Shown here: one piece after another, positions 13,847-55,578 of the stretch
Layout of the letters: each line of letters begins with the position of its first letter
How positions within the stretch are numbered: the stretch's first letter is position 1
DNA from: Malus domestica
Lineage: Eukaryota; Streptophyta; Magnoliopsida; Rosales; Rosaceae
DNA length: 64,000 bases
Direction of reading: 5' to 3'
NCBI RefSeq assembly: GCF_042453785.1
Contig: NC_091671.1
Coordinates: 40,876,501-40,940,500 of the forward strand
Position numbers and translations under genes: made by a program
Notes under the pieces: model-generated
Seen by the model: only the letters and a program-made list of their open reading frames with translations
Database searches by the model: none
Told to the model about the DNA's origin: nothing

Positions 13847-16800
13847 GTACGCAGAATTGGATGAAGAATTCCGCAATCGAGTTCAAGAAAATACTCGGCG
13901 TTATATTGGTGTATTTGCTGATGGCATCGATGAGCTCATGCCGGAGCCCACAGAGGCATTTACAGATGATGATCATGACATACTGATGACCTAGAGGTCT
14001 GATGATGGACCAGAGAATATGGATGGTCCTGATCCACATCAGAAGATGCCTCCTGAAATCAAGCGCTACTTGTGAGTTCAACGCAAAATCCTAATTCCTG
14101 TTGTGTTTGTTCGAATGAAATTTCGGTCTAAATGTGTGCATTCACTGAATTGTGTGGTCGGTAACGGATCATATGCATTTAAATCTTAGTTTGACTAGTA
14201 TCTCATGCCAGAAGTTACAGTGCATAATCAGTCATTGGATATGTATGGTAACACTGATACACTTCCTGTTTCGATTTAAACTTTGTGTTTGGTAGCTCGT
14301 TATCCATGACTCGATGGTAAATGAATGTCAATTTTCTCAAAGGAATTAGCTAGCTTGATTTATACCGATTGTATAACAAATAGAACAAAGGGGAACCTTA
14401 TACTTCAACTCAGGGCATCAAAGTTCTTGAAGTTTCAGGAGGTACTTTATACCGATTTAGTCATAATTATTTAATAACGTGAGGACAGCTGTATTATAAT
14501 ATGGTTATGCATTAATTTTTTCAACAGTAGTGTTTATCATCCTTCTGTGATATATTGAGATGTTGTTCAATTTCAGGCAAAGATGCAAGAGTTGGCTGAA
14601 GATGTTCCAAAAGGCCATATTCCAAGGACAATGACTGTTCACTTCAGGGGTGAACTCACAAGAAAGGTAGCATGCTTCTATGTTAATTCTCATAGAGCAT
14701 TTTAAGCGTAAACTTACAGTTTTGAATTAATCCTTTGCAATGGGGTAGGCAGGGGTTTCCATTTCACATGATTGCAGGAAGTGATGACATCCTGCTTCTA
14801 CTTAACTGATTATTAACTTTTTTCTTTTGAATTTTCATGTGCCTCTTTCGCAACACCATTAGGTAGCTCCGGGTGATGTTGTGAAACTATCTGGGATTTT
14901 TCTTCCTATTCCTTACACTGGTTTCAGAGCAATGCGGGCTGGCTTAGTTGCAGATACTTACTTAGAAGCCATGTCCATCACACATACTAAGAAAAAATAT
15001 GAAGAGTAAGCCATTATTTCATTTTCAGTTCAATTTGGTCATCTGTTTATACATTTCTTTTATCAGTTCTCGGTCGACAACACCATCTATGCTTCTGTAT
15101 TGGACTAAATTACTTTCATACAAATCTTTAACTATATATTGTTCCCATTTTTCAACTCTTAACATAGACCCTATCTGGTGCTTGTAGTGCGGTTTTTGCT
15201 AAACTTATAGTTCTTTTACCTGCTTTGATAAACCGCTTTAATTCTTACATGATAATAGGTGCTGTGTACTAACTTGTGTTATGCCGTAGTTACGAACTTA
15301 TAGGAGATGAGGAAGAACAGGTTGCACGTTTGGCTGAGGATGGTAACATTTATGAAAAGCTGGCTCGATCTTTGGCACCTGAAATATATGGGCATGAAGA
15401 TATAAAAAAAGGCGCTGCTTCTGCTCCTAGTGGGTGCTCCCCACAGGAAACTAAAAGATGGAATGAAGGTAAGTTCTCAACGTTACCAGATACCATGTAA
15501 CTCAATCATACATGTTGTCAAACTGAATTTTGCTTACCATTTTGAGAATTTTGATTCACAAGATTATGGATATCATTTGGAAGCATCCTCTATAGTGAAG
15601 TGGAAGATCAGCAGTCCTCTCTTCTTCCTTCTCTCTCTTGACCTTGCTTCCTGATCTGGCTCTTACTCCTCTTGGTCACTGATTAATGGTTATGTAAATT
15701 GAGCTTCAGTTTGCAATTTGTCTCCTTCCATTTTAAGATGGGATTTCCAAGCCAAATGTTTTATTTTTAGGAAAATTTTGGAGCTCATATCATGTCTGTG
15801 ATACTGATACAGTAGACTGGTCATAGCATGTTTTATCATTTGCATGGTAGGACTACAAAAGCTCATAATATATTCTCCTTCAAAATGCAGATTAGAGGAG
15901 ATTTACATATTTGTCTGATGGTTGATCCTGGAGTTGCAAAGAGCCAGCTTCTCAAACACATAATTAATGTAGCACCAAGGGGAGTTTATACAACTGGCAA
16001 AGGAAGCAGTGGAGTTGGTCTAATTGCTGCTGTTCAGAAAGATCCCGTCACAAATGAAATGGTCCTGGAAGGAGGAGCATTGGTGAGACACATATGCTCC
16101 ATTCAGTTATATATATTATTTTTTTCATCTATGTTTATTTTCACATGTTATACGAGTGGAAGAGCATATAAAATAGTAACTACGTGTCGAATATATGGAT
16201 AATACTTAAGATTTCTTAATGTTAAACTTTTATTGAATCATACCAAATGTGTGCCCTTGATGCAGAAGTAATAGCTAGAAAGTAAAGTGGGAAGTAGAAC
16301 CTAGCCAGTTTTCAGGAGTCAATCCATAACAAATTCCATTTAGAATCCCTAATTAAACCAGATCCCCATAGTTCTCTATTAGGCTATCTATCTGATTATT
16401 CTTCTAGTGTTTCTGGGTGTTGAACTGTGGAAGTATAACTCATTTCAGGTGCTAGCGAATATGGGAATATGTGCTATTGATGAATTTGATAAGATGGATG
16501 AATTAGATCAGCAGACTGTTAGCATTGCTAAGGCTGGGATCACTACGTCTTTGAATGCAAGAACAGCTGTTCTTGCTGCAGCAAATCCAGCATGGTACAA
16601 ATCTTTCTACTTTTTAATCTGGTTCATTTAGGGCATTACTCTTTGTTGCTACTCTTCTATATTGCTCTAATTATGTGGTACTTTTTCTACTGCTGGCGGC
16701 TAACCTTCTTTGTGAAAAATCTACTCTTACTGTGGTTGTTTTATATATATTCTTGAAGGGGGAGATACGACCTACGTAGAACTCCTGCTGAAAACATTAA

Positions 16801-18352
16801 TCTTCCACCAGCCCTTTTGTCAAGATTTGATCTTTTATGGTTAATCCTGGATCGAGCAGATATAGATAGTGATCTTGAGATGGCTAGGCATGTTGTCTAT
16901 GTTCACCAGAATAAAGAATCTCCGGCTCTTGGCTTCACTCCACTTGAGCCATCTATTATTCGGTAAATTTCACATCTTTTACCATGGAAAGCTCAGCAGT
17001 ACTGATTTCAGGATATTCTCTTTTGTTTTAGTCTTTCTATTGATCACTTCTACATACGAACAAATATAAGTCTGTATAGAACTTGTAATTTGTAAAACTA
17101 CCTAAATCTTTATTTTCAAGTCTGCTGATTGGGGGACTTTCAGATAAGATTCTTTTATTAATTTTTTTCAGGGCGTATATTTCTGCGGTGAGAAGATTGT
17201 CTCCTTCAGTCCCGCAGGAACTTGAGGAGTATATTGCTAGTGCCTACTCAAGCATTCGGCAAGAAGAAGCTAAATCGAATGCACCCCACTCCTATACAAC
17301 TGTGAGAACTCTGGCTCAGCATTCTTCGAATATCGGCTGTAAGTCCTGCTTTTCATATTTTCGTTTATATAAATGCGGTTCCGTAAATATACGCTGTGCA
17401 TCACAAAAAAATAAGATGGCAAGAAATGACACAGCAATATATGCTGTCCATAAAACATTACAGAGGTGGAGAAATGGAATGGTTTCTAGCCATCTACATT
17501 GTCATAGGGTTTGGGGTGCAAGAATGATGTTCTGCCGTCTGCATGTAGCAGAGGGCAAGCCACCCAGTTTAAGAGTGTTTGGACCTAAATGTTGCATATT
17601 AACCTGAATCTGGGTAATATCATTAATATGTACGTGTATGTTGTTTGTGCCACCTTTTACCCTTTTGATGGTCTGCCCCAGAAATGCCATCCATAATTAG
17701 AGGAAGAAATATGTTGCATGGAAATCTAGTTTTAACAAATGCCATTTACTTTTTTGGGTATTATTGGATGGGTCGCTCAATGGACAAACTGACTTCTTTT
17801 GCTTACAGGCAGTAGCAAGACTCTGACATTCTGAAACAGTGGCTCAATCTGATGTGGATGAGGCATTAAGGCTGAAGCATATGTCGAAGTTCTCTTTGTA
17901 CTCAGATGATCGCCAGAAATCTGGTCTGGATCCTATTGGTGATATCTATTCAATTTTGCGAGATGAGTCTGAGACGACTGGCAAGCTAGGAAGGTTAGTT
18001 TTTGCAAAGCATCTTGTGATCGATGTTCAGAGGAATGACTGAATGCCATCTGATGCCAAAATAACTGCACTGCTTATCATGTCAAACAACTAGTACAAAA
18101 CTTGGAAGTGATAAGAACATAACTATATAAATCAGAGTAGTAGAAATTCAAAATATATCTCTCAAAAAATGAAAATTCTTGGTATTCCTGTCGGAAATTC
18201 TATCTATTTCGTCTCAAGCCATGTGGAATGTTTGCTTTGGAACAGGGATACAGTGAAGCCCAACTGAAACAATGTTTGGAGGAATACGCAAACATAAATG
18301 TGTGGCAGATTAATCCCCTTTCTTTTGACATCCGATTTATTGATGCCATTTG
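13847..18352 (+). pseudogene. MCM7: MCM7 (replicative helicase subunit), unprocessed pseudogene
   Basis: MCM7 is one of six subunits of the MCM2-7 helicase that unwinds DNA at origins. Recognisable exons run in order: 13847-14073 ([20 protein letters not shown]), about 14395-14445, 14577-14667 ([19 protein letters not shown]), 14862-15006, 15290-15469, 15890-16083 (Walker A region), 16449-16596 (Walker [12 protein letters not shown]), 16759-16963 (SRFDLLW arginine finger), 17172-17346, 17813-17994 and 18240-18350. Damage: an in-frame TAG at 13992-13994; the zinc-finger/OB exons are missing; +1 slips near 15411 and 17311; Walker A reads VDPGVAKS instead of GDPGVAKS; nine residues are lost after DELD near 16512; TGA at 17824-17826. 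The first exon is absent; the CACTA end lies 300 bp upstream. Introns are kept, so it arose by DNA duplication and not by retroposition. Confidence 0.95.
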
Positions 18353-53998: not shown

Positions 53999-55578
53999 CA
54001 TACCTAAGAGTACTGCTTGATTCCCCAAAAGATGTAGCTAAATATTGGTCCATTTTAAACAGATTTAACTATAGTTGATTTCCGAATCATTTGGGTTTTA
54101 ACAATTCTAAAAATGTATTTCTAGAAACAAGTCCATGAATTCAGTAATTAGTCTGTTTTATGTTCACTGGTGACATTGACCCCACATGTTGCAGAAATCG
54201 ATGTTTTAATCAGTCTAGCAATTGCAAGTGATTGTTTTGAAGGACCCTCTTGTCAGCCAGTGGTCATGAGTTCATCGTGTAGTAATGAAGTACCCCGTTA
54301 TTCTGCATAAAGTTTGGGACATCCTGTTCTTAGAAGTGATTCTTGAGGAAAGGGTACATTTGTATCCAACGACATTGCCATTAGAGGTTCTGGCCATGCG
54401 AGCTTTACCCTTCTCACTGGTCCTAACATGGGTGGAAGGTCTACTCTTATTCGCCAAGTTTGCTTGGTTGTGATTTTAGCAACGTAGTCTTCTCTTATTG
54501 TCTGAATTTCTTACTTGTATTTATTGCCTTGCAATGTGTGATCATTTTCGCCTTTGTTTCTTCAGCAGTTAGGAGCAGATGTTCCTGCAGAGAGCTTTGA
54601 GCTATCTCCTGTTGACCGAATCTTTGTTTGTATGGGTGCTAAAGATAATATCATGGTATACATTTCTGACAGAGCTATCAGAAACTGCAACAATGCTGGT
54701 GAGATTACTATTTAGAGCAACTTGGTTCAAACTAATTTAGTGTTACAAATGTATTGTTCTGATTTCCCGTGTTCATAAAAATAGATTGTTTAGGTAGTGT
54801 GGGTTGAAAAAATTTCATCTGGTTCTAATCTTGGTTATGATATGCATTTCTCTTGAAAATTCATAAATCATGTCTTCTCAACTTATTTCAATATGTAGTG
54901 CCATGACTCATGAGTGTAATGAGTATATCAGTTCACTGGGTTCTGGGTTCTGAAATTCTTTCAAATTATAGACGAAGGTGTTATGATTTAAGAAATTCAT
55001 TGTGCTAAACATATATTTCAATATTGTTTGTAGTCATCAGCTACTCGAAATTCATTGGTGGCACTGGATGAACTTGGACGTGGAACATCAACTTAGATGA
55101 TGGACAAGCCATTGCGTAAGAGCCAATCATGCTAGATATTTGTGAATGATTTTGCCTTTACCCAAATCTTGTGTTTTTCATTCGTTTCCTCTTCAACTTT
55201 TGTATGTCCTCTTGAACTGGCAGGGAATCAGTTCTTGAACATTTTATCTACAAGGCCCAGTGCCGAGGAATGTTTTCTACCCATTATCACCGACTAGCTG
55301 TAGATTATCAAAATAATTCTAAGGTATTTTTCTCATTCTTCTGTGGTTGATCTATATTTTCTTTTGACAAGATTGGTGATAAGATCATCTTGTACGCCGA
55401 TGCTATAAATTGAACTGTGTCTAATTTATTTCCTTGCTTCTTTGATAGGTTTCACTCTGTCATATGGCATGCCAAGTTGGAAATGGAGATGGAGGTGTGG
55501 AAGAAGTTACATTCCTTTACAGGATGAGTCCTGGTGCATGCCCTAAAAGCTATGGTGTGAACATTGCACGGTTAGCTG

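Follow-up and report, generated by a model that had tools for sequence, protein, structure and literature searches.

Why should two dead genes of DNA replication and repair flank a row of mostly open genes on one apple chromosome, and what history of loss would leave them there? The stretch considered here, called the window, comprises 64,000 nucleotides of Malus domestica chromosome 11 (C11:40876501-40940500; positions given without a chromosome are counted within it, and + or - denotes the strand). MCM7 and MSH6 both occur in it as intron-bearing pseudogenes, on one strand and 32 kb apart, as a first-pass annotation of the sequence had proposed and as exon projection and the lesions described below bear out. 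Searches of the same genome, covering 651 Mb in 19 contigs, place intact MCM7 (721 amino acids) and MSH6 (1318 amino acids) in a segment of chromosome 3 (C3:37.47-37.53 Mb) that is collinear with the window. Very probably the window is one of two homeologous copies, on C11 and C3, of an ancestral block that was doubled in the whole-genome duplication (WGD) of the apple tribe and then fractionated gene by gene. As gene loss goes, this is ordinary except in one respect: a third copy of MCM7 lives on another chromosome.

The state of the two remnants was established by projecting exons of the C3 gene models one by one onto the window. The C3 MCM7 model has 15 exons and 721 codons, which encode MCM_N, MCM_OB, MCM, MCM_lid and MCM7 winged-helix domains. 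Eleven of the 15 exons were detected in the window at 13848-18353 (+), namely exon 4, part of exon 6 and exons 7-15; codon comparison supports the assignment, as does the open frame containing exon 10, whose top PDB sequence match is MCM7. Exons 1-3 and 5 are missing and exon 6 is truncated to 73 of 123 bp, a deletion of about 680 bp having taken exon 5 and the start of exon 6 (junction at 14361-14369, +, where position 52342 of the C3 string is followed by 53025). In-frame stops stand at codons 102 and 618, and exons 9, 11, 13 and 14 carry gaps of +1, -27, +1 and -37, respectively. The exon 9 frameshift, at 15404, falls in an A homopolymer and might reflect an error of sequencing, an explanation that does not extend to the missing exons. 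For MSH6 the C3 model has 21 exons and 1318 codons, with splice sites picked by a simple score, so that single joins may err by a few codons; the intact protein matches MSH6 in PDB with 696 bits and MSH3 with 336 bits. Projection and codon comparison recover 18 of the 21 exons in the window, at 50377-55578 (+). Exons 1, 10 and 21 are missing, exon 9 is gutted and exon 11 is truncated to 50 of 92 bp; frame-shifting gaps lie in exons 3, 7, 12, 13, 15, 16, 17 and 18 (in exons 12 and 15 their total is divisible by three), and six stops interrupt the C3 register. The limits that the first-pass annotation set around the two genes, 13847 and 55578, fall within one base of the start of MCM7 exon 4 and the end of MSH6 exon 20. 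Both remnants are unprocessed pseudogenes, with introns at the positions of the living gene, GT/AG boundaries mostly kept, and lesions that block the product; the retained introns rule out processed pseudogenes in both cases. Within 310 kb on C11 there are additional MCM7 fragments, at 40.585 Mb, 40.668 Mb (L031) and 40.854 Mb (L030). The matches at 40.585 and 40.668 Mb have the same score for one exon. In L031, the 3' part is far nearer to the window MCM7 than the 5' part is, as after exchange between copies.

Malus chromosomes 3/11, 5/10, 9/17 and 13/16 are described in PMC3033827 as fully homeologous, and chromosomes 2, 8 and 15 as more complexly related. The intact copies of both dead genes are found in a collinear partner on the homeologous chromosome C3, the pattern of a fractionated homeolog, and collinearity between C3 and C11 reaches the right edge of the window. 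Intactness here means open frames, splice sites and a low ratio of nonsynonymous to synonymous divergence (dN/dS). The gene order MCM7-BRWD-DIM1-CKI1-PPR-MSH6 predates the duplication behind C3 and C11, and collinearity shows only that.

The age of the remnants can be read from silent divergence (dS, by the Nei-Gojobori method, NG86). Between C3 and C11 dS is 0.132±0.020 for MCM7 and 0.101±0.015 for MSH6. As a yardstick within the block, BRWD and DIM1 together give 0.147±0.012; outside it, the C5/C10 homeologs of MCM3 and MCM4 give 0.095 and 0.247, or 0.158±0.023 when pooled, over parts of 272 and 224 codons. Intron distances between C3 and C11 (Jukes-Cantor, JC) are 0.134 and 0.205 for MCM7 and 0.121-0.122 for MSH6. 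Silent divergence is therefore homeolog-like for both pseudogenes, if somewhat low for MSH6, and because it is close to that of the living homeologs both dead genes can be traced to the duplication from which C3 and C11 arose. The first-pass annotation had looked to intact genes elsewhere in the genome and to pseudogene divergence not far younger than the duplication as support for its proposal; the collinear C3 block supplies the former for both genes, and both pseudogenes lie near the living homeologs, MSH6 the lower of the two. In an alternative history, a segmental duplication with rearrangement, far younger than the WGD, would have brought the block to C11 (or C3). In its favour, a segmental copy of this kind does exist, on C1, and MCM7 fragments are strewn along C11 at 40.585, 40.668 and 40.854 Mb. 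Nevertheless, we regard a young segmental origin as extremely unlikely, given that C3-C11 divergence is on a par with the values for the block's living genes and for two further homeologous pairs, that the C1 copy is clearly younger (dS 0.042-0.050), and that C3 collinearity extends to the window's right edge.

The copy on C1 deserves description in its own right. C1:6792932-6874663 matches C3:37471166-37524998 piecewise at 82-96% identity, with 94-96% in the 3' pieces of BRWD and in the long piece of MCM7 and that of MSH6; the copied C3 segment measures about 54 kb. A probe of one 65-amino-acid MSH6 exon finds three genomic places, on C11, C3 and C1. A three-way comparison of 14 segments unites C1 with C3 in 12 and fails to do so in the two PPR segments. 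Beyond the right end of the block C3 is still collinear with C11 and C1 is not, so C1 is the derived place and is ruled out as the original one. It is likewise ruled out as an allelic or assembly duplicate by its own insertions, its truncated MSH6 and its lack of a C11 match beyond MSH6. MCM7 alone is intact there: BRWD has lost its middle, DIM1 and PPR are broken, comparison with C3 gave no match to CKI1 in the C1 block, and MSH6, without exon 2 and with exon 1 incomplete, carries a repeat insertion and ends within exon 17. With 9 synonymous and 2 nonsynonymous changes, C1 MCM7 departs from neutrality (P 5e-5) in the direction of purifying selection, while the 7 and 21 changes of C1 MSH6 are consistent with neutrality (P 0.45). 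The living MCM7 copies are thus two, on C3 and C1. The intact C3 MCM7 contains an insertion of about 8 kb in intron 12/13 (C3:37475738-37483604) that is absent at the equivalent place on C1; a related element lies on C1 where CKI1 is missing.

Did the two C11 genes die together? The first-pass annotation had pictured a replication/repair pair in joint decay after the duplication. We dated the deaths by nonsynonymous change, estimating the neutral share of the C11 branch. In unrooted counts for C11 plus the stem, MCM7 has 41 synonymous and 11 nonsynonymous changes, as against 28.5 and 48.5 in MSH6; these nonsynonymous shares differ with P 2.5e-6, which rules out a single joint death. Loss after duplication stands, then, and joint decay falls, MSH6 having died long before MCM7. 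For MCM7, dN/dS is 0.07 between C3 and C11 and 0.085 in the living pair of C3 and C1. The MCM7 tree could be partly rooted with L031, an old dead copy about equidistant from C11 and C3 MCM7 over exons 4-12, for which exons 4, 9-12 and 15 were usable. The rooted counts of synonymous and nonsynonymous changes are 12/3 on the C11 branch and 10/1 on the C3/C1 stem, with 6/3 of ambiguous placement. L031 itself has 16/28 on its own branch and two stops, so the method does detect a dead gene. The estimated neutral fraction of the C11 branch of MCM7 is about zero, with a 95% upper bound of 0.16 at the living dN/dS of 0.07; other assumed values move this bound to 0.14-0.18 in the rooted and 0.11-0.16 in the unrooted analysis. 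For MSH6 the neutral fraction of C11 time is 0.51-0.68, varying with the constraint assumed. By these estimates C11 MSH6 would have evolved neutrally over about one half to two thirds of the period since the duplication, and C11 MCM7 would have died within at most about the last 16% of it, long after MSH6. With the duplication at about 50 million years (My), the figure given in PMC8558331, MCM7 would have died no more than about 8 My ago. The C1-C3 dS of 0.042 for MCM7 and 0.050 for MSH6 corresponds to 0.32 and 0.49, respectively, of what each gene shows between C3 and C11, which makes the C1 copy older than the death of C11 MCM7; an intact MCM7 under purifying selection was already present on C1 at that time. 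The fragment L030 derives from C11 MCM7, to judge from JC distances of 0.033 and 0.056 in its two parts and the C11 state at 53 of 75 diagnostic sites. It is without the exon 13 insertion and the exon 14 deletion of C11 MCM7, so those two lesions are younger than the L030 copy.

A recent death could be an illusion if gene conversion from C3 had kept the C11 MCM7 exons similar. Conversion is reported as elevated among apple and pear ohnologs in PMC11965797, and the MCM7 copies on C11 have exchanged sequence, since the 3' part of L031 lies near C11 MCM7 (JC 0.049) and its 5' part does not. Conversion from C3 would, however, lower dS as well, and neither the MCM7 dS of 0.132 nor the intron distances of 0.134 and 0.205 are low. 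We therefore consider this explanation very unlikely, and return to a duplication followed by two separate deaths. Three observations weigh against that account. Silent divergence of MSH6 lies below that of the living genes (0.101 versus 0.147, about 2.4 standard errors). The spread of dS from gene to gene is wide, with 0.254 and 0.187 for CKI1 exons and 0.285 for PPR. Finally, the lesion load of C11 MCM7, with two stops, four small gaps and two large deletions, is high for a near-zero missense excess. This combination of many lesions with few missense changes favours the upper range of the MCM7 neutral fraction over zero; the point estimate may place the death a little too late.

Between the remnants, BRWD, DIM1 and CKI1 had been called intact, with a PPR gene beside them, and for the first two this holds. 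The BRWD-type gene at 21953-31713 (+) has open exons with BRWD1_N, WD40 and bromodomain matches, in a heuristic splice model that omits part of one long open frame. DIM1, an rRNA adenine dimethylase at 32787-34188 (+), is open and under purifying selection. The PPR gene at 47673-49577 (-) is a single open frame of 634 codons from the first ATG. For the CKI1-like histidine kinase at 35545-39124 (-) the claim goes too far: its kinase, ATPase and receiver exons are open, but a sensor-domain exon was not found among minus-strand frames of at least 45 codons at 35900-41700. On C3, CKI1 is disrupted by a stop and a frame change, and C4 carries a CKI1-like relative of 57% identity. The last CKI1 exon, encoding the end of the receiver, is partly duplicated downstream in the window (34531-34680, compared with 35545-35802). 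The C3 PPR is fragmented, with stops. Among the 70 of 1232 candidates scored, no intact member of the PPR gene's group was found besides the window copy; the broken C1 and C3 copies come next, then paralogues of at most 35% identity. Since the only intact copy found sits on C11, loss between C11 and C3 is reciprocal. In the main PPR segment (47240-49153; C3 string 94527-96751) the C3 copy is the outlier, at JC 0.26 to both others, and C1 and C11 are 0.12 apart, a grouping at odds with the tree that the remainder of the block gives. Either rapid decay of the C3 PPR or its replacement by a paralogue may account for this. Between CKI1 and PPR lies a Copia-type long terminal repeat (LTR) element (42073-46922, -), with 334-bp terminal repeats 96.4% alike and broken frames; it has no match at the same place on C3.

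As for wider ancestry, AT4G02060 (PRL) and AT4G02070 (MSH6) appear with neighbouring Brassica gene numbers in PMC4896912. The next gene downstream of MSH6 in the window is a RING-variant (RINGv) gene, with its first exons at 58182-58621 (-), and it is also present on C3. Presumably AT4G02075 is of the RING-variant type as well, which would extend the match to the gene after MSH6; a literature search for AT4G02075 turned up nothing. BRWD, DIM1 and CKI1 would correspond to At2g47410-47430. The two Arabidopsis regions may be fractionated remnants of the gene order in the window, a common descent that the first-pass annotation had hinted at from SAR1-type genes flanking both.

The sequence of events most consistent with these data would start from the ancestral MCM7-BRWD-DIM1-CKI1-PPR-MSH6 block, doubled by the apple-tribe WGD. 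On the C11 side MSH6 would have been lost early and MCM7 late; on the C3 side PPR has been lost and CKI1 is broken; BRWD and DIM1 are still open on both homeologs. A later segmental copy of about 54 kb would have passed from C3 to C1, where all but MCM7 decayed, and C11 MCM7 would have died after this C1 copy arose. We infer that redundancy with C3, in the case of MSH6, and with C3 and C1, in the case of MCM7, made the C11 losses tolerable. The first-pass annotation had explained the decay by intact copies elsewhere, which fits the C3 genes; it did not foresee the second living MCM7 on C1, and the reciprocal loss is a further change to its account.

The survival of C11 MCM7 for so long raises a further question, whether the C1 copy merely preceded its death or permitted it. 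Under a relay replacement, the stoichiometry of MCM2-7 would have held MCM7 at two copies for tens of My, until the C1 copy released the C11 homeolog to die with the count unchanged. This would be an addition to the duplication and fractionation described above, not its opposite. A Pfam MCM domain search of the genome gave 74 exon hits, which were identified by a PDB search with one exon per pair or locus, mates being assigned from the hit pattern. MCM2 (C13, C16) and MCM3 (C5, C10) each have two loci with 4+4 hits, MCM4 (C5, C10) has 5+5, MCM5 (C2, C15) 6+6, MCM6 (C5, C10) 5+5 and MCM7 (C3, C1) 4+4. The remaining hits fall on the dead C11 MCM7 (4), L031 (4), two further MCM7 places (1 each), MCM8 (4) and MCM9 (3), each a single locus, and one weak match on C4. 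The pairing of MCM2-6 with equal hit numbers, beside two intact copies of MCM7 and single loci of MCM8 and MCM9, speaks for a relay, and the MCM3 and MCM4 copies have dN/dS of 0.05 and 0.16 over the parts read. On C11, constraint on MCM7 lasted for about 84% of the time or more, and the gene's death came later than the origin of the C1 copy (dS 0.042); on C1 MCM7 is under purifying selection (9/2) whereas MSH6 of the same block is not (7/21). Yet this is a single case, and with three copies redundant to one another chance loss would give the same succession of events. Moreover, the dead C11 MCM7 and L031 also yield four hits each, so equal numbers cannot tell living from dead copies of MCM2-6, which slightly lowers the odds of a relay. 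We accordingly hold it to be possible, if rather unlikely.

Taken without the relay, the locus shows, with dates attached, that two neighbours within a homeologous block were lost in separate events; the block also unites genes that live on, one early, one late and one reciprocal loss, and a third copy. If an MCM7 relay proved true across species, dosage balance would become directly testable, with selection keeping the copy number and not a particular duplicate. DNA-repair genes are known to return to single copy after polyploidy. MSH6 conforms, appearing to be back to one intact copy, on C3, among the three places found, and MCM7 does not, having kept two. A MutS_V search gave 28 hits, comprising one clear homeologous pair on C6/C14, the three MSH6 places and seven other, seemingly single loci, two of which (C10:29.9 and C4:24.6) score alike. 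Retention of complex subunits through dosage balance is a published concept (e.g., PMC10471226 and PMC7616505). MCM2-7 resemble it in having two loci each in the domain search, besides the dead MCM7 copies, and depart from it in that the two living MCM7 loci are not the two homeologs of the duplication. The closest known system is the fractionation that followed the Maleae (apple/pear) WGD. The window shares with it the pairing of C3 and C11, the homeolog-like divergence and the reciprocal, gene-by-gene loss, and differs in the late loss of MCM7 and in the second living copy that a segmental copy on C1 provides.

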